Positions 4,143 through 62,158 of a stretch of 64,000 nucleotides of DNA are shown here, in pieces. Source of the stretch: Candidatus Omnitrophota bacterium. Its GTDB lineage: Bacteria; Omnitrophota; Gorgyraeia; Gygaellales; Profunditerraquicolaceae. Location of the stretch: NCBI GenBank assembly GCA_026387315.1, contig JAPLLY010000017.1:62001-126000 (forward strand), in the 5' to 3' direction. The position numbers and the translations under genes were made by a program. The notes beneath the pieces are model-generated. The model did no database searches, had not been told where the DNA came from, and saw nothing but the letters and a program-made list of their open reading frames with translations. Each line of letters begins with the position of its first letter. Positions within the stretch are counted from its first letter, which is position 1.

Positions 4143-4218
4143 AATAATCTTTCCCTTCGCGGGGGCTCGGGGTCATTTTTCCCCAAGCGCCGGTGGCTGG
4201 GGAAAAATGAGGAGGTTA
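4143..4218 (+). repeat. family-3 hairpin repeat upstream of dnaK (carries GAGGAGG)
   Basis: cccttcgcgggggctcggggtcatttttccccaagcgccggtggctggggaaaaatgaggagg; similar copies at ~21826-21988, 30396-30422, 54831-54903. Confidence 0.85.
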
Positions 4219-53341: not shown

Positions 53342-53369
53342 CCCTTCGACGTCAACAGGGAGTCCAGCG

Positions 53370-54338
53370 ATGATTGTTTTAGGGGTCGAGAGTTCTTGTG
53401 ATGAAACCGGGGTGGCCATCGTTAAGGATGAGAGAAAGATTTTAGCTAATGTCGTGGCTTCCAGCCTAAAATTACATCGGCGCTATGGCGGGGTGGTCCC
53501 GGAGATTGCCTCGCGTATGCAGTTGGAAAGCATAGCTGGTATTTTTACGGAGGCAATTAAGATCGCTAAAATAAGGCCTGAGCAGATTGGCTTAGTCGCG
53601 GTTACTACCCATCCCGGTTTACCCGGTTCATTGATGGTAGGAATCGCGTTTGCCAAAGCCCTGGCTTTAAGCTTAGGCAAGCCGATACTAGGGGTTAATC
53701 ATATTCATAGCCATGTTTATGCCAATCTCCTTGGCTATACTAATATTAAGCTGCCGGCTGTGGCTTTAGTTGTTTCCGGAGGGCACACCTCTTTATTTTA
53801 TATAAAAGATTTTTCTAAAATTCAGGTAATCGGACAAACCCGGGATGACGCCTGCGGAGAGGCTTTTGATAAAGTAGCCAAGATTATGGGGCTGGGTTAC
53901 CCGGGAGGGCCTTTAATTGAAAAAATAGCTCAAAGTGGAAATAAACATAAAATTAAATTTGCCTGCTCAAGAATGAGCAATGAACTGGATTTTAGTTTTA
54001 GTGGTATAAAAACCGCGGTTTTATATTATTTAAAAGATAAAAAATCTGGCATTAAATTTAGCCAAGACCTGGCCGCTTCTTTCCAGGAGACCGTGGTTAA
54101 TGTTTTAGTAAAAAAATCCCTGCTGGCCTGTAAACGAAAAAATGTTACGCGCCTTTTAATCGGCGGAGGGGTAGCGGCCAACGGAGTTTTGCGTCAAAAA
54201 TTCATGGCGGAGGCTAAAATTGCAGGAATTGACTACTTTTTTCCGGATATTAATTTGTGTATGGATAATGCCGCGATGATTGCCGGTTTAGGGGGTTATC
54301 TTTACCAACGCGGCGCAAGAAGCGATTTTAAAAACTAG
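53370..54338 (+). CDS. tsaD: tRNA N6-threonylcarbamoyladenosine biosynthesis protein TsaD
   Basis: MIVLGVESSCDETGVAIVKD...GVNHIHSHVYANLL; ATG 53370 preferred over track start. Confidence 0.95.
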   Translation: MIVLGVESSCDETGVAIVKDERKILANVVASSLKLHRRYGGVVPEIASRMQLESIAGIFTEAIKIAKIRPEQIGLVAVTTHPGLPGSLMVGIAFAKALALSLGKPILGVNHIHSHVYANLLGYTNIKLPAVALVVSGGHTSLFYIKDFSKIQVIGQTRDDACGEAFDKVAKIMGLGYPGGPLIEKIAQSGNKHKIKFACSRMSNELDFSFSGIKTAVLYYLKDKKSGIKFSQDLAASFQETVVNVLVKKSLLACKRKNVTRLLIGGGVAANGVLRQKFMAEAKIAGIDYFFPDINLCMDNAAMIAGLGGYLYQRGARSDFKN

Positions 54339-54381
54339 GGGACGGTTCTATTTTTCTTTTCAGAAAAATAGAACCGTCCCC
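54338..54381. repeat. family-1 GGGGACGG hairpin abutting the tsaD stop codon
   Basis: ggggacggttctatttttcttttcagaaaaatagaaccgtcccc; first G is the last base of TAG. Confidence 0.9.
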
Positions 54382-54402
54382 TGATTCAAAAGCGGAGGGC
54401 TT

Positions 54403-54828
54403 ATGCCTACGGATTTACAAATGATCACGCGTTTATTATTAACTTTGGTTTTAAGCGGCTTAATCGGACTGGAAAGGCAAGTACACCGCAGAGATGCCGG
54501 CCTGCGCACGCATATCTTAGTGGCTTTGGGCAGCTGTCTTATCATGTTGACATCTTTGTATGTTTTTGATATATATAAAGATCAGGTAGCCTTAGATCCT
54601 GTGCGGATTGCCGCTGGAGTAGTTACCGGTATTGGTTTTCTGGGAGCCGGTACGATAATTCATGAATCTGATGGGGTCAGGGGTTTAACCACGGCGGCTA
54701 GCCTTTGGGTGGCGGCAGGGATTGGTTTAGCGGTGGGAGTGGGTTTTAATAAAATAGCAATTTATACCACGGTTTTGGTTTTAATTGTTTTACATTTTTT
54801 ACGTTACGTAGAGGGACCAGTAAAATAA
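54403..54828 (+). CDS. MgtC/SapB family membrane protein
   Basis: LLLTLVLSGLIGLERQVHRRDAGLRTHILVALGSCLIMLTS...AAGVVTGIGFLGAGTIIHESDGVRGLTTAASLWVAAGIGLAVG. Confidence 0.92.
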   Translation: MPTDLQMITRLLLTLVLSGLIGLERQVHRRDAGLRTHILVALGSCLIMLTSLYVFDIYKDQVALDPVRIAAGVVTGIGFLGAGTIIHESDGVRGLTTAASLWVAAGIGLAVGVGFNKIAIYTTVLVLIVLHFLRYVEGPVK

Positions 54829-54830
54829 TC

Positions 54831-54899
54831 TTTCCCCCTCGCGGGAGCTCGGGGCCATTTTTCCCCAAGCGCCGGAGGCTGGGGAAAAATGAGGCGGGT
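54831..54899 (+). repeat. family-3 hairpin repeat upstream of the bactofilin gene
   Basis: ccctcgcgggagctcggggccatttttccccaagcgccggaggctggggaaaaatgaggcggg. Confidence 0.87.
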
Positions 54900-54903
54900 A
54901 AAC

Positions 54904-55410
54904 ATGGCCTTTAAAAAGAATTTAGAGGAAAAAACGCTAGATGTCGATGCCGCCATGCAGGGGACTTTAAGCTTTAAGGATCCGGTTAACCTGCGGATTA
55001 ATGGAAAATTTGAAGGCAATCTGGAAACTTTGGGTAATTTGACTATCGGCGCTACAGCTGTAATCAACGCGGATATCCTGGGAGATAATATTATTATTGG
55101 CGGCCGAGTCAAGGGTAAGATTACCGCTAAGGAAAGGCTTACTCTTCTTCCGCAGGCGATAGTTGAAGGGCATATCTATCCGGCAAAACTTAATATTGCC
55201 GAAGGCGCGGTTTTTCAAGGACAGTGCACAATGTTGCATGATTTTCTTAATTCTGAGCAGTTGGCTAAATACCTGGAGGTAGAATTAAGCTCGATTGTAG
55301 AATGGGCTAATTCAGGAAAAGTACCGGCAAGTAAAGAAGATAACGCCTGGAAATTTGAACGTAAAGCGATAGATTCCTGGGTAGCTTCAGGCAAAATCGC
55401 AAAGTCTTAG
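54904..55410 (+). CDS. bactofilin with C-terminal excisionase-type HTH domain
   Basis: GTLSFKDPVNLRINGKFEGNLETLGNLTIGATAVINADILGDNIIIGGRVKGKITAKERLTLLPQAIVEGHI (bactofilin) then FLNSEQLAKYLEVELSSIVEWANSGKVPASKEDNAWKFERKAIDSWVASGKI (HTH_17-like). Confidence 0.85.
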   Translation: MAFKKNLEEKTLDVDAAMQGTLSFKDPVNLRINGKFEGNLETLGNLTIGATAVINADILGDNIIIGGRVKGKITAKERLTLLPQAIVEGHIYPAKLNIAEGAVFQGQCTMLHDFLNSEQLAKYLEVELSSIVEWANSGKVPASKEDNAWKFERKAIDSWVASGKIAKS

Positions 55411-55443
55411 CGGATACAACTCTAAGCCGCTAACGTATAAAAA

Positions 55444-55755
55444 ATGACTGAAGAAAAAATGCTCACCGTTAGAGATGTATCCATTATGCTGGGGGTCTCG
55501 GAAAAAGATGTTTTGGATCTGACTGAGAACGGAACGATCCCAGGTTATAAGGTAGGAGGCGTATACCTAAGATTTAAGCAGGAGCAGGTTGAGCAATACA
55601 AGAAAAATCAAAGCCTCCTGGAGCCTAAGGCGGCTAAAGGAGAATCCGAAGGCTTAAGAAACAGGATTCACGATTTCTTTTATTTTAATGATTTTTATAT
55701 TTTTGCCCTAATTTTCATAATCCTTTTGGGATACTTGGTTTACCGGGGTATATAG
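55444..55755 (+). CDS. excisionase-type HTH protein with C-terminal transmembrane helix
   Basis: MLTVRDVSIMLGVSEKDVLDLTENGTIPGYKVGGVYLRFKQEQVEQYKK then DFYIFALIFIILLGYLVYRGI. Confidence 0.8.
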   Translation: MTEEKMLTVRDVSIMLGVSEKDVLDLTENGTIPGYKVGGVYLRFKQEQVEQYKKNQSLLEPKAAKGESEGLRNRIHDFFYFNDFYIFALIFIILLGYLVYRGI

Positions 55756-55759
55756 AGCA

Positions 55760-56437
55760 ATGTCCGCGCGCAAAGGGTTTTGTGATTTAGGGTTTGCCAA
55801 AATTGATACCGCTAGAAAGAAACGAAAAGGATTCGCGGAAGTTATCTATTGCCCGGGAAAAGGCCGCCCGCACTTAAGACAAATTGCTAAAAAAATAATT
55901 TCCTGCCGCCAAGACCTGCTTTTAACCAAACTAGATAAAACTACATTTTCCTTTTTAAAGAAAACAATTCCTGCTTTAAAATATAACAGCTTGGCAAAAA
56001 TCGGTTATTATTCAAGTAAACCTAAGGCCCTATCCGGAGGTTTAGTCTTAGTGGTCTCTGCCGGAACAGCGGATATTCCGGTAGCTGAAGAAGCGGTACA
56101 GACCCTGTTGGTTATGGGTAACCAGGTTGAAAGGCTCTATGATGTAGGCGTAGCCGGAGTGCACCGGCTGATGCATAATCTTGATAAATTAAGAAAGGCT
56201 CAAGTAATTGTGGTGGTGGCAGGCATGGAGGGAGCTTTAGCCAGTTTAGTCAGCGGGCTAGTCAAGGCGCCAATTGTGGCTGTACCGACCAGTTGCGGAT
56301 ATGGCTCCAGCTTTTCTGGTTTGGCCGCGCTTCTAACGATGTTAAATGGTTGTTCGCCGGGAGTCAGCGTAGTCAATATTGATAACGGATTTGGGGCCGG
56401 CTATTTTGCTAGTTTAATTAATAACACCCCGCGCTAA
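55760..56437 (+). CDS. larB: nickel pincer cofactor biosynthesis protein LarB
   Basis: VVSAGTADIPVAEEAVQTLLVMGNQVERLYDVGVAGVHRLM...VAGMEGALASLVSGLVKAPIVAVPTSCGYGSSFSGLAALLTMLNGCSPGVSVVNIDNGFGAGYFA. Confidence 0.92.
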   Translation: MSARKGFCDLGFAKIDTARKKRKGFAEVIYCPGKGRPHLRQIAKKIISCRQDLLLTKLDKTTFSFLKKTIPALKYNSLAKIGYYSSKPKALSGGLVLVVSAGTADIPVAEEAVQTLLVMGNQVERLYDVGVAGVHRLMHNLDKLRKAQVIVVVAGMEGALASLVSGLVKAPIVAVPTSCGYGSSFSGLAALLTMLNGCSPGVSVVNIDNGFGAGYFASLINNTPR

Positions 56438-56456
56438 TTGGTATTGCGCGGGTGTT
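56423..56456. repeat. family-5 palindromic repeat overlapping the larB 3' end
   Basis: aacaccccgcgctaattggtattgcgcgggtgtt. Confidence 0.88.
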
Positions 56457-56477
56457 GTCTAGGTAGACAAGATAATT

Positions 56478-57809
56478 ATGGCACTTTCGGGTTTGGATAT
56501 TTATAAGTTATTGCCTAAAACAAATTGCCGCCAGTGTGGTTTAGCTACTTGCTTGGCTTTTGCCATGCAGTTGGCTAAGAAAACATTGCCGATTGAAAAA
56601 TGCCCTTTTGTTTCGCTTGAGGCTAAAAGTACTTTGGAAGCGCAGGCAATGCCCGCGATTAAATTAATTACTTTGGGCGGCAATGAATTGAAATTTGATA
56701 TTGGTAATGAAACGGTAATGTTTAGGCATGAAGAAAAATTCCGTAATCCAACGGGAGTAGGTTTTATCATTGATGATAATTTAGGCGGCACCGAAATAAA
56801 AGAGCGGCTTAATAGGATCAATCAATTAAAATTTGAACGCGTGGGCCAGAAGCTTGGAGTTAATCTCGTCGCGCTAAAGCAAAATAAGGATGCCCAGAGG
56901 TACCTGGAGGTAACTAAATTGCTTCTGGATAACACTACTTTGCCGATTATGTTGATGAGCAGTGACCTGGTTGCTTTAAAACAGGCGGCAGTTATCAGCC
57001 GAGAGCGTAAGCCGCTGCTTTATTCCGCGGTTGGGGAAAATTTCGCGCAAATCGCTACAATCGCTAAAGAATTTCAGTTACCTTTAGTAGTTACCGCGCG
57101 GGATATTGATCAACTGAGCCAGCTTACCCAAGAACTTAACGGCTTAGGAGTAAGGGAGCTGATTTTAGATACAGGGATAAAGCCGATAGCGGATAAAATC
57201 TGGGATTTAACGCAACTGCGCCGGCAGGCGCTTAAGAAATCGAATCGCGCGTTAGGTTATCCGAGCCTGGCAATTATCCAGCAAGCTGACCCTTATCAAG
57301 AGGCGATAGAGGCAGGCGCTTATATCGTTAAATATGCCGGGATCGTTTTGATTAAAGGCCTGGCTGCCTGGGAAGTCCTTTCCATTTTGACCTTGCGGCA
57401 AAATGTTTATACTGATCCGCAAAAACCTTTACAAATTTCCCCTAAGCTTTACCCTGTTGGGCAAGTAAGCCGGGATTCGCCGGTTTTGATTACCACCAAT
57501 TTTTCTTTAAGTTATTATACTGTTTTGACAGAGGTAGAATCTAGTAAAATACCCGCGTATATTTTAAGCGTAGATACCCAAGGCATGTCTGTGCTTACTG
57601 CCTGGGCTGCTGAAAAATTTAACGCTGAAGTAATTACAAAATCACTGGAAAGCTCGAAGGTAAAAGAGATAATTGGGCATAAGAATTTGATTATTCCCGG
57701 TTATGTTGCCATGATCAGCGGTGATTTGGAAGATCAGTCAGGGTATAGAATAATTGTGGGCCCTAAAGAAGCAGCAGGGATCCCTAGTTTCTTGAAAAAT
57801 TTACAATAA
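56478..57809 (+). CDS. acsC: corrinoid iron-sulfur protein large subunit (acetyl-CoA decarbonylase/synthase gamma)
   Basis: MALSGLDIYKLLPKTNCRQCGLATCLAFAMQLAKKTLPIEKCPFVS and TIM-barrel body. Confidence 0.92.
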   Translation: MALSGLDIYKLLPKTNCRQCGLATCLAFAMQLAKKTLPIEKCPFVSLEAKSTLEAQAMPAIKLITLGGNELKFDIGNETVMFRHEEKFRNPTGVGFIIDDNLGGTEIKERLNRINQLKFERVGQKLGVNLVALKQNKDAQRYLEVTKLLLDNTTLPIMLMSSDLVALKQAAVISRERKPLLYSAVGENFAQIATIAKEFQLPLVVTARDIDQLSQLTQELNGLGVRELILDTGIKPIADKIWDLTQLRRQALKKSNRALGYPSLAIIQQADPYQEAIEAGAYIVKYAGIVLIKGLAAWEVLSILTLRQNVYTDPQKPLQISPKLYPVGQVSRDSPVLITTNFSLSYYTVLTEVESSKIPAYILSVDTQGMSVLTAWAAEKFNAEVITKSLESSKVKEIIGHKNLIIPGYVAMISGDLEDQSGYRIIVGPKEAAGIPSFLKNLQ

Positions 57810-57814
57810 TCCAT

Positions 57815-57888
57815 GATTTTGCGGGTCCTGTCTTGGGTATTTTCTTGCGCTGACGCGCTGCGAAAACACCCAAGCCACCCGCAAAATC
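57815..57888. repeat. family-4 palindromic repeat between acsC and acsV
   Basis: gattttgcgggtcctgtcttgggtattttcttgcgctgacgcgctgcgaaaacacccaagccacccgcaaaatc. Confidence 0.9.
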
Positions 57889-57896
57889 TTTAGCTT

Positions 57897-59525
57897 ATGA
57901 AAAAATTCAAAGTTAGTTTTTTTCCGGATAATTTAACGATTAGCGTAGAGAAAGATGAAACTATACTTTCTGCGGCGATCGCGGCGGGGATTTATCTTAA
58001 TGCCAATTGCGCTGGAGACGGAACCTGTGGCCGATGTAAGGTTATTGTTCAACAGGGGCAGGTTAAAAGCCGGCCCAACGGAATAATCACCGCGGCTGAG
58101 AAAAAAAATAATGTTTATCTGGCCTGTTTGGCCATTATCCAGAGCGATCTAGAGGTTTTGATACCAGATAACTCGCGGATTGATAAAAATATCCAAATTG
58201 ACAGCTTAGGAGGCGAGGTTACGATTGAGCCGGCCGACACCACCGGTAAAAACTTTGGGCTTTGTTTTGATATCGGCACGACGACAATTTCCGGTCAACT
58301 AGTAAATCTAAATTCAAAAAAAATTCTGGGAACCAAAACCGCCTACAACCAACAAGCTGTTTTTGGCAGCGATGTAATTACGCGTATAGTCTATGCGGCT
58401 AAAACCGGCGGCTTAGAAAAATTACATAACGCTGTTAGCGATACGATGAATCAAATTATTAAGGATTTAGCCAGCGAGCATAAAATTAGCCTTTTTGATG
58501 TTAACTGTATTGTTTGTTCAGGCAACACGACGATGATTCATCTGCTTTTAAGCCTGGATCCAGCGCATATCCGCCGCCAGCCATATGTTCCCACGGCAAA
58601 TTTCCCGCCGGTTTTACGCGCCGCCGAAGCTGGAATAAACATTAATCCCTCCGGATTACTCAGCTGCGTTCCCGGGGTTTCTAGTTATGTGGGCGGGGAT
58701 ACCACCGCCGGAGTTTTATCCAGCGGAATATATCAAAAAGAAGAGCTTTGTATTTTAATTGATATCGGGACAAACGGAGAAATTGTTTTAGGTAACCGGG
58801 ATTTTCTGGCCGCCTGCGCGGCATCCGCCGGCCCGGCTTTTGAGGGCAGCGGGGTAACTAGCGGTATGCGCGCCTCTGGAGGGGCAATCCAAAAAGTAAG
58901 TATTAATAAAAATGATTTTGGCGTTAAGTATTCGACGATTCAGGATAAATTACCTCTGGGGATTTGCGGGTCAGGTTATATCGATTTACTTAGCGAAATG
59001 TTGGAGGCGGGAATAATTGATAAAGGAGGAAAGATTAAAGTTGCCGGCAAACGGATTCGCTCGACCGATAATGGCCGGGAGTTTGTAGTTTGCTTTAAAG
59101 AAGAAATCCAGGCTCAAGCGGATATTGTGATTAACGAGGCGGATATTGAAAATCTTAAGCGTTCTAAGGGCGCGATATATTCAGCTTGCGCTATTTTAGT
59201 TAAACATTTAGCCTTGAAATTTTCCGCCATCTCTAAGCTATTTATCGCCGGGGGATTTGGCGCTTACCTGGATATTGAGAAAGCCATCCGCATTGGATTA
59301 TTGCCGGATTTAGAGCGTTCTAAATTTATTTTTATCGGTAATAGTTCTTTGACCGGCTCTAGAGAAATACTTTTATCCGCTCAAGCGATGGCCATAGCAG
59401 ACGCGCTGGCCTCTAAAATTACCTATTTTGATTTATCGGTTGACTCGGGGTACATGGAAGAATATAGCCAGGCGTTATTTTTCCCGCATACGGATTTGAC
59501 TAAGTTTCCTACGGTGGGGTTTTAA
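57897..59525 (+). CDS. acsV: corrinoid activation/regeneration protein AcsV (2Fe-2S plus ASKHA)
   Basis: NCAGDGTCGRCKVIVQQG...FGLCFDIGTTTISGQLVNL...LIDIGTNGEIVLGN. Confidence 0.88.
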   Translation: MKKFKVSFFPDNLTISVEKDETILSAAIAAGIYLNANCAGDGTCGRCKVIVQQGQVKSRPNGIITAAEKKNNVYLACLAIIQSDLEVLIPDNSRIDKNIQIDSLGGEVTIEPADTTGKNFGLCFDIGTTTISGQLVNLNSKKILGTKTAYNQQAVFGSDVITRIVYAAKTGGLEKLHNAVSDTMNQIIKDLASEHKISLFDVNCIVCSGNTTMIHLLLSLDPAHIRRQPYVPTANFPPVLRAAEAGININPSGLLSCVPGVSSYVGGDTTAGVLSSGIYQKEELCILIDIGTNGEIVLGNRDFLAACAASAGPAFEGSGVTSGMRASGGAIQKVSINKNDFGVKYSTIQDKLPLGICGSGYIDLLSEMLEAGIIDKGGKIKVAGKRIRSTDNGREFVVCFKEEIQAQADIVINEADIENLKRSKGAIYSACAILVKHLALKFSAISKLFIAGGFGAYLDIEKAIRIGLLPDLERSKFIFIGNSSLTGSREILLSAQAMAIADALASKITYFDLSVDSGYMEEYSQALFFPHTDLTKFPTVGF

Positions 59526-59543
59526 ATATCGGAGATTCGAGTA

Positions 59544-60320
59544 ATGGGTTATGTTATCGCGCTGGCTGGAAAAGGAGGCACGGGAAAAACTACGATTGCC
59601 GCTTTAATTATCCGGGCTTTAAAAGAAAAAAAACTGGGTTCAGTGTTAGCTATTGATGCTGACCCTAATAGCAATTTAGGAGAGGTTTTGGGCGTGCCGG
59701 CAGGTGATAATCTGGGCGCTATCCTGGATCAAATATCTGCTGATCCGAATAAAGTCCCGGCGGGGATGGCCAAAGAGCGTTTTATTCAGCACCAGGTGCA
59801 GACAACGATTCAGGAAGAGGATGGTTTTGATTTATTAAGCATGGGCAAGCCTGAAGGGCCGGGCTGTTATTGTTACGTAAATAATGTTTTACGCGGTTTG
59901 ATGATTAAGTTGATCAAGGATTATGATTATATCGTTGTGGATAACGAAGCTGGATTAGAGCACTTGTCGCGGCGCACCAGCCGATTCGCGGATATCTTGA
60001 TTGTAGTATCGGACGCTTCTAGCGTAGGCTTAAAATCAGCTAAAAGAATTATAGAATTAGTGAATACCTTAAAATTTGAAGTTAAAAAAAGTTTTCTTTT
60101 GATTAATCGTTTTAATAAAAATATACCCGAGGATAAAATTAAAGAAACCGGCTTGGAGTATTTAGGTAATTTACCGCTGGAGCCGCAAATTGAGGAGTTG
60201 AGCCTGCAAGGTAGATCCATTTTTGATTTAAAATCAGACGCGCAAATTTTAACGGCGCTTAGTTTGATACTGTCAAATTCCCCTCTCCTGGTGGGAGGGG
60301 CTAGGGGTGGGGGAGATTAA
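59544..60320 (+). CDS. cooC: CooC-like nickel insertion ATPase
   Basis: MGYVIALAGKGGTGKTTIAALIIRALKEKKLGSVLAIDADPNSNLGEVLG; GPGCYCYVNNVLRG. Confidence 0.87.
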   Translation: MGYVIALAGKGGTGKTTIAALIIRALKEKKLGSVLAIDADPNSNLGEVLGVPAGDNLGAILDQISADPNKVPAGMAKERFIQHQVQTTIQEEDGFDLLSMGKPEGPGCYCYVNNVLRGLMIKLIKDYDYIVVDNEAGLEHLSRRTSRFADILIVVSDASSVGLKSAKRIIELVNTLKFEVKKSFLLINRFNKNIPEDKIKETGLEYLGNLPLEPQIEELSLQGRSIFDLKSDAQILTALSLILSNSPLLVGGARGGGD

Positions 60321-60334
60321 TTGGGAGGCCAAAT

Positions 60335-61270
60335 ATGGAAATATCATTAGCGCTTGAGAAATGGCCGGGAGTAATTTCGACGGTAATTATCGGAGCGAAA
60401 AAAGAAGAGGGGGGTTCCCGCGGCGAGACGGTAAAAATCGGCGGGCAAAGCACCATGCCTTTATTATTTAAGGAAGGCGCTATTCCTAATCAACCTAAGA
60501 TTGCTTTTGAAATCTGGGACATTGCTCCGGTTGACTTCGACGAAGAGTTAACCGCCGCCTACGGCGAGGCAATCAATGACCCTTTGGCTTGGGCGGATAT
60601 TTGCGTTAATGAATATAAAGCACAACTGCTTTGCCTAAAAATGCAAGGAACGCATCCTGATTTTGGCGATAAAAGCCCTGCAAGCGCGGCAAAGTTTATT
60701 TCTACATTACTAAGTAGAGTTAAAGTTCCTTTAATAATTATAGGAAGCGGGGATGACGCCAAAGATAATTTGATTATGCCGGCTTGTTCCGAGGCAGCTA
60801 AAGGCGAGCGCTGCCTGATTGGCTGCGCGGTAGCTGATAATTATAAAACTTTAACGGCCAGCGGATTAGCTGACGGACATAGTATTATCGCCGAAAGCCC
60901 GATAGATATTAATATTGCCAAACAGCTAAATATTTTAATTTCTGATCTGGGATTAAGCCTGGAACGCATTGTGATTAATCCGACGATTGGCGCGTTAGGG
61001 TATGGTTTGGAATACGCTTATTCGATTATGGAAAGAGCCAGGCTGGCGGGTTTATCCGGGGATAAAACTTTAGCTTCGCCTTTTATTTGTTTCGTCGGCC
61101 AGGAGTCTTGGAAAACCAAAGAAGCAAAAGCTAATCCCCAGCAGGGAATTATCTGGGAGGCTCTTACTGCCGCTAGCTTTATTCAATCCGGAGCGGATCT
61201 TTTGGTTATGCGCCATCCTAAGGCTATAGAGGAAGTTAATAAATATATAGCTGTAAGTTATAAGCTGTAA
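60335..61270 (+). CDS. acsD: corrinoid iron-sulfur protein small subunit (acetyl-CoA decarbonylase/synthase delta)
   Basis: PKIAFEIWDIAPVDFDEELTAAYGEAINDPLAWADICVNEYKAQLLCLKMQGTHPDFGDKS. Confidence 0.9.
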   Translation: MEISLALEKWPGVISTVIIGAKKEEGGSRGETVKIGGQSTMPLLFKEGAIPNQPKIAFEIWDIAPVDFDEELTAAYGEAINDPLAWADICVNEYKAQLLCLKMQGTHPDFGDKSPASAAKFISTLLSRVKVPLIIIGSGDDAKDNLIMPACSEAAKGERCLIGCAVADNYKTLTASGLADGHSIIAESPIDINIAKQLNILISDLGLSLERIVINPTIGALGYGLEYAYSIMERARLAGLSGDKTLASPFICFVGQESWKTKEAKANPQQGIIWEALTAASFIQSGADLLVMRHPKAIEEVNKYIAVSYKL

Positions 61271-61307
61271 GCCGTAAGTTATAAGCTGTAAGCCGTAAGT
61301 TGTAAGC
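61253..61307. repeat. 21-bp tandem repeat, ~2.5 units
   Basis: gtaagttataagctgtaagcc x2 then gtaagttgtaagc; overlaps the acsD stop. Confidence 0.85.
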
Positions 61308-61369
61308 TTACGACTTAAAACTTAAAGCTTAAAACTTCTGTATAGTTTAACTTTTTCAAGGGGTGAATT

Positions 61370-62158
61370 ATGTTTGTAATCGGTGAGTTAATTAACGGGA
61401 TGTATTCTAATATCGCTTTGGCGCTTAAGGATCACAATAAAAAAATCGTGCAAACTTGCGCCTTGGAGCAAATTGCCAGCGGCGCGGATGCCTTGGATAT
61501 ATGCTGCGGGCCGGCTTCCCAAAATCCCCTAATTGATATGCCCTGGCTGGTGGAAACAGTCCAGGAGGTAACCGATAAACCGCTTTGCCTGGATTCCAGT
61601 AATCCTAAAGTTATCCAAGAAGGTTTAAAAGCCGCTAAAAATAAAACCATAATTAATTCCACGACCGCGGACGCGGAAAAACTAGAAATTCTTATTCCGT
61701 TGGCCAAAAAATATAAATCTAAGCTCATTGGCATAACCATCAGCGCTCAAGGTATTCCCCAGAATAAAGATCAACGCCTGGAGTTAGCGGCAACAATTCT
61801 TACGCAGGCTGGGGAGCAAGGGTTTCCTATTAAAGACCTATACCTTGACCCTATAGTTATGCCGATTAATGTGGCGCAAAACCAAATCCAAGATATTTTG
61901 GCGGCGTTGCTTGAGTTTAAGTTGATTTCGCAGCCTAGCCCGAAAACAATTATCGGCTTAAGTAATATTTCTCAAGGGTCAAAGGTTCGCAGTTTGATTA
62001 ACCGCGCATTTTTGACGATGGCAGTTGCATCCGGATTAGATTCTGCTATACTTGATCCTAAAGATAAAGAGCTGATGGACGCATTAATTACCGCGGAGCT
62101 GGTTTTAAATAAAAATATTTACTGTGATTCGTATTTAGAGGCTTATCGAAAGAAGTAA
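61370..62158 (+). CDS. acsE: methyltetrahydrofolate:corrinoid/iron-sulfur protein methyltransferase
   Basis: MFVIGELINGMYSNIALALKDHNKKIVQTCALEQIASGADALDICCGPAS; DHP-synthase-like fold motifs. Confidence 0.88.
   Translation: MFVIGELINGMYSNIALALKDHNKKIVQTCALEQIASGADALDICCGPASQNPLIDMPWLVETVQEVTDKPLCLDSSNPKVIQEGLKAAKNKTIINSTTADAEKLEILIPLAKKYKSKLIGITISAQGIPQNKDQRLELAATILTQAGEQGFPIKDLYLDPIVMPINVAQNQIQDILAALLEFKLISQPSPKTIIGLSNISQGSKVRSLINRAFLTMAVASGLDSAILDPKDKELMDALITAELVLNKNIYCDSYLEAYRKK

Follow-up and report, generated by a model that had tools for sequence, protein, structure and literature searches.

A bactofilin carrying a C-terminal winged helix-turn-helix and a membrane-anchored winged helix-turn-helix protein form a core gene pair of the phylum Omnitrophota

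The window, the whole 64,000-nucleotide stretch of DNA that we analysed, belongs to an Omnitrophota MAG (G000; 1.8 Mb in 62 contigs) that has one bactofilin. The bactofilin gene and the gene following it lie between tsaD/mgtC and larB, beyond which come genes that are of Wood-Ljungdahl type by resemblance (53361–62158), an arrangement that most loci of the order retain. The features of the locus are listed in Table 1. The first gene of the pair encodes a bactofilin β-helix (PF04519, E 2.6e-24) followed by an excisionase-type helix-turn-helix (HTH; PF12728, HTH_17, E 7.6e-9), and the second encodes the same HTH class followed by a single C-terminal transmembrane (TM) helix, hereafter HTH-TM. 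Both architectures had been predicted originally and were confirmed here, as was the adjacency of the two genes; the gap, however, is 33 bp and not the predicted 34 bp.

Table 1. Positions of the genes, domains, and motifs at the locus (numbered within the window)
Feature	Position	Strand	Basis or remark
MgtC-family gene, conserved upstream neighbour	54403..54828	+	
Bactofilin-wHTH fusion protein, 168 aa	54904..55410	+	PF04519 + PF12728; AF2 mean pLDDT 86.7; start fits homologues L033, L035
N-terminal MAFKKNLE, candidate membrane-targeting peptide (one aromatic + lysines)	54904..54927	+	suggested by likeness to MFSKQAKS
Bactofilin β-helix domain, aa 12-108	54937..55227	+	PF04519; structural match BacA 2n3d, TM 0.84
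C-terminal winged HTH, aa 114-163, HTH_17/MerR-Xis fold	55243..55392	+	PF12728, AF2, Foldseek
Turn + recognition helix EVELSSIVEWANSGK, acidic	55276..55320	+	net charge −2; family mean −1.95, n=117
HTH-TM protein, 103 aa, 33 bp 3' of fusion gene	55444..55755	+	HTH_17 E 6.8e-9; AF2 mean pLDDT 75.4
Winged HTH of HTH-TM, aa 6-56	55459..55611	+	PF12728, AF2, Foldseek
Turn + recognition helix GVSEKDVLDLTENGT of HTH-TM, acidic	55492..55536	+	net charge −3; family mean −1.93, n=116
Juxtamembrane motif DFFYFNDFYI of HTH-TM	55672..55701	+	3.85 bits
Single transmembrane helix, aa 83-101	55690..55746	+	AF2 helix, hydropathy
larB, frequent downstream neighbour	55760..56437	+	

The start codon of the fusion gene is most likely the ATG at 54904 because the homologues L033 and L035 begin after AAAGGAGG; a second in-frame ATG lies upstream, at 54889. 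The leader (54831–54903) holds a dispersed repeat, TTTTTCCCCAAGCGCCGGAGG (54856–54891), which also occurs at 4176, 21851, and 21944 and is absent from this spot between mgtC and the bactofilin start in L033 and L035. Another dispersed repeat, the palindromic GGGGACGGTTCTATTTTTCT, is found at 54337–54382 and elsewhere from 17082 to 63932, with 16 matches (at most two mismatches) in 64 kb versus 0 expected, and forms a perfect 21-bp inverted pair between tsaD and mgtC. Rfam returned nothing between 52000 and 58000.

Both HTHs pass the Pfam curated cut-off, the β-helix domain passes that of the bactofilin family, and the expected Pfam families were matched by 79 of 79 fusion homologues and 87 of 87 HTH-TM homologues sampled. 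In the AF2 model of the fusion (79 aligned sequences), the β-helix is followed by helices 117–124 and 128–137, a wing, and helix 153–161. Similarly, the model of HTH-TM (87 aligned sequences) consists of helices 9–16 and 20–28, a wing, helix 46–58, a further helix at 69–81, and the TM helix. Both HTHs show the helix-helix-hairpin-helix order of the HTH_17/MerR-Xis fold, and in Foldseek both matched BldC, Xis, RacA, and other MerR-type winged HTHs (wHTHs), and also CbpM, with TM-scores of 0.6–0.88 over the target and weak E-values of 0.006 or more, as expected for a domain of only 50 residues. The C-terminal domain of the fusion models as a MerR/Xis-type wHTH, in agreement with the original prediction. 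A PADLOC match to mad1 (E 7e-5) and NCBIfam MAD1 matches below cut-off were set aside as reflecting the shared fold only.

The fusion resembles the canonical bactofilins, C. crescentus BacA and T. thermophilus Bac, in its β-helix (Foldseek match to BacA), in being a single short protein, and, in close relatives, in an N-terminus like those that target membranes; whereas the canonical proteins have unstructured tails, the Omnitrophota fusion ends in a folded wHTH. Its β-helix would, by analogy with the family, mediate polymerisation. The N-terminal MAFKKNLE is similar to MFSKQAKS of C. crescentus BacA (PMC12448750), and peptides of this type are common among close relatives and degenerate in others. 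A survey of 14,337 bactofilin N-termini describes membrane-targeting peptides and, occasionally, TM domains at the N-terminus; searching its text for additional domains or for Omnitrophota returned nothing (PMC12448750). Bactofilin matches without an HTH also occur in Omnitrophota (G090:C114, G109:C28, G029:C5, G075:C17, and G120:C152), some of them beside the fusion.

The C-terminal hydrophobic helix of HTH-TM has a 19-residue hydropathy of 2.13 from residue 81, and the protein ends shortly past this helix, with almost no periplasmic part. Its conservation peaks at the juxtamembrane DFFYFNDFYI (compared with 2.86 bits for the HTH), where Y80, D83, F84, and Y85 are invariant in A2. A cytoplasmic HTH followed by one TM helix is also the layout of RodZ, in which the HTH interacts with MreB and with itself and does not bind DNA (PMC6946637). 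In contrast, RodZ has an XRE-type HTH_25 and a periplasmic domain, and neither was found in HTH-TM, which has HTH_17 instead. The window genome and nearly all relatives checked have an HTH_25 (RodZ-like) gene besides, and the idea that HTH-TM replaces RodZ was rejected on this ground.

The full-length fusion is present in most of the 128 genomes of the window genome's order. A phylum-wide sample of 335 Omnitrophota genomes, families outside the window's class included, contained it in about 283 at E<1e-30. By tallies made by hand from tables, HTH-TM (E<=1e-10) occurs in all 283 fusion genomes and, without the fusion, in about 20 others, while 32 genomes have neither; the fusion was never found without HTH-TM among the 335. 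Family f35 lacks both genes. At the 125 loci read directly, the two genes always share a strand; the gap between them has a median of 13 bp, and some pairs overlap by 4 bp. Across the phylum Omnitrophota, the pair is a core feature, and the expectation that the two genes are co-conserved in related genomes was borne out. Outside the phylum, no fusion turned up among 44 genomes from the phylum to which Auribacter fodinae belongs, nor among 120 from that of the Treponema record, where bactofilin matches end near profile position 112–125; other phyla were covered only by a pattern-limited scan. Plasmids yielded partial bactofilin matches, none spanning 80% of the query, and no fusion. A record titled Candidatus Pacebacteria (L044) carries an 86% identical fusion in the same gene order, and its title or bin looks wrong. 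A 271-aa open frame resembling a natural fusion of both genes (G106/L063) was rejected, as the L063 assembly has a run of N there.

A basic recognition helix, the mark of DNA-binding HTH_17/MerR-Xis proteins, was found in neither family. We compared the net charge of the 15-residue turn plus recognition helix as a proxy for DNA binding. The mean is −1.95 for the bactofilin wHTH (range −4 to 0; 117 distinct sequences) and −1.93 for HTH-TM (n=116; four above zero), against +3.86 (range +2 to +5) in 14 distinct stand-alone HTH_17 sequences of the same order, so that the ranges barely overlap (Mann-Whitney p about 2e-12 and 2.5e-9, on a smaller first set and with relatedness ignored). Among reference proteins, the helix charge is +4 for BldC and +3 for RacA in their DNA-bound structures, +3 in Xis Gp37, and −4 in CbpM. 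An acidic residue (D/E) occupies position 133 of the bactofilin wHTH in 110 of 117 sequences. The replacement of Arg by an acid at one position was discarded as proof against DNA binding: D or N stands there in stand-alone HTH_17 proteins too, and net helix charge was therefore used. Genus relatives (e.g., L184, L195, and L209) also encode small stand-alone HTH_17 proteins whose recognition helices are basic (e.g., MVNSNLMTIEDLADYLKVTRRTIYDWLKHNKIPALKLVGQWRF), and these proteins are conserved between genomes. Taken over its full length, the bactofilin wHTH domain is also negative (−3.2). The wing of HTH-TM is basic (+3.45), which leaves room for weak or wing-mediated DNA binding, disfavoured though DNA binding is. 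Judged by these charges, both wHTHs probably do not bind DNA.

This bears on the original prediction that the two HTHs could bind DNA and connect the nucleoid with the bactofilin filament and the membrane, which we now regard as improbable. The fold does match the DNA-binding BldC, Xis, and RacA, the HTH-TM wing is basic, and bactofilins of Myxococcus position ParABS (PMC5703909); however, the recognition helices are acidic throughout the phylum, the bactofilin wHTH is negative overall, and the known bactofilin–chromosome link goes via PadC and ParA, not via a bactofilin-borne HTH (PMC5703909). In that M. xanthus BacNOP-PadC-ParABS system, bactofilin filaments are likewise joined to a possible-HTH protein and the genes are clustered, but the connection to DNA is made there by a separate ParB-like protein bound to a disordered tail of BacP. 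Tethers of the proposed kind exist: a MerR-type wHTH is joined to the membrane by an amphipathic helix in RocS and to a polar anchor in RacA-DivIVA (PMC11500499). Their wHTHs bind DNA, and they have coiled-coil linkers and no bactofilin, whereas the Omnitrophota pair has the fold and the membrane anchor without the DNA-contact charge. With these precedents, the tether idea is less unprecedented than had been claimed; of the bactofilin-HTH fusion itself, no description was found in the titles, abstracts, and passages searched.

Membrane-bound one-component regulators are known, and on that precedent HTH-TM could be a membrane-anchored transcription regulator of the operon, with the bactofilin wHTH as its filament-borne antagonist or co-regulator. 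The basic wing agrees with such a function, but the acidic recognition helix and the near absence of a periplasmic part for sensing do not; moreover, the conserved neighbours are housekeeping genes, and no operator was identified. We consider this reading very unlikely.

Whether the two proteins are partners at all has to be judged from gene content more than from gene order. Nearly all loci share GatB-Ctp-(PsdA)-TsaD-MgtC-bactofilin-HTHTM as a syntenic block, and since its long GatB-Ctp-TsaD-MgtC part is equally syntenic, the adjacency of the pair is weak evidence of partnership; the asymmetry, in which the fusion never occurs without HTH-TM but HTH-TM sometimes occurs without the fusion, tells more. 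In all 14 checked genomes that have HTH-TM without the fusion, bactofilin matches were absent. The flanks are intact in several of them, as TsaD-MgtC-HTHTM-LarB in L163, L171, L172, and L174 and as TsaD-HTHTM-PolA in L165 and L166; weaker cases among the roughly 20 are L162 and G359, at contig ends, and G155, with only a 65-aa HTH frame. In the comparison made, no HTH-TM sequence change was visible and no position tracked the loss of bactofilin, the HTH and the motif appearing unchanged. Lys21 was tried as a residue tied to bactofilin presence and proved lineage-specific within families f9 and f32. Since HTH-TM is retained without bactofilin, it has a bactofilin-independent role and is more than the membrane end of a tether built on bactofilin; the fusion, in turn, may need HTH-TM.

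These observations also suit a reading without partnership, in which HTH-TM acts on its own as a small membrane protein (a regulator or an assembly factor), the bactofilin wHTH recruits something else, and the gatCAB-ctp-tsaD-mgtC block merely stayed together. The long synteny and the unchanged place of HTH-TM in several bactofilin-free lineages argue for it, while the invariable company of HTH-TM in fusion genomes, the very short and sometimes overlapping gap, and the unusual acidic wHTH common to both proteins argue against it. We hold it to be a serious though doubtful alternative.

Our tentatively favoured explanation, which falls just short of an even call, is a phylum-wide Omnitrophota module in which MerR/Xis wHTHs serve as protein-interaction modules and the wHTHs of the filament dock on membrane-anchored HTH-TM. 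The bactofilin would polymerise and show its acidic C-terminal wHTH along the filament. HTH-TM would be a small bitopic membrane protein that presents a cytoplasmic acidic-helix wHTH and the nearly invariant juxtamembrane FYFNDFY. Docking, directly or via a shared third protein, would hold the filament at the inner membrane, where it could scaffold an envelope process, and HTH-TM additionally has its own filament-independent role. This adaptor reading is based on the acidic helices, which depart from stand-alone relatives and resemble CbpM; on the presence of HTH-TM in every fusion genome, on the same strand and at a short distance; and on the precedents of CbpM, an acidic J-domain binder, and RodZ. 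Physical contact between the fusion and HTH-TM is conceivable but somewhat doubtful; in a paired mean-field DCA of the two proteins, inter-protein scores were mixed with noise at Neff 81.

CbpM has the MerR fold without the DNA-contact residues and binds the J-domain of CbpA with acidic interface residues (PMC4063869). Like the Omnitrophota proteins, CbpM (3ucs) is a MerR-type wHTH, its second helix, GVSEEELTEIVGLGM, is strongly acidic, and its gene lies directly downstream of its partner's; in contrast, CbpM has a coiled-coil and a J-domain as its target, and it has neither a membrane helix nor a cytoskeletal partner. In the bactofilin-LmdC (M23 peptidase) modules, too, the operon encodes a bitopic membrane partner right beside the bactofilin, but that partner is a periplasmic hydrolase and no HTH is involved (PMC10945521). 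Bactofilin filaments with non-DNA-binding wHTH docking sites for HTH-TM could possibly, although we would not rely on it, add to RodZ and CbpM another independent example of a DNA-binding fold turned protein adaptor, one in which the filament itself carries the HTH.

Collectively, the results describe a cytoskeletal gene pair that is core to the uncultured phylum Omnitrophota and apparently ancestral, with the FYFNDFY motif and the acidic-helix signature as named, testable features. The pair would exemplify how a winged HTH can become an adaptor carried by a filament, and it warns that an HTH on a cytoskeletal protein is not always a DNA tether.
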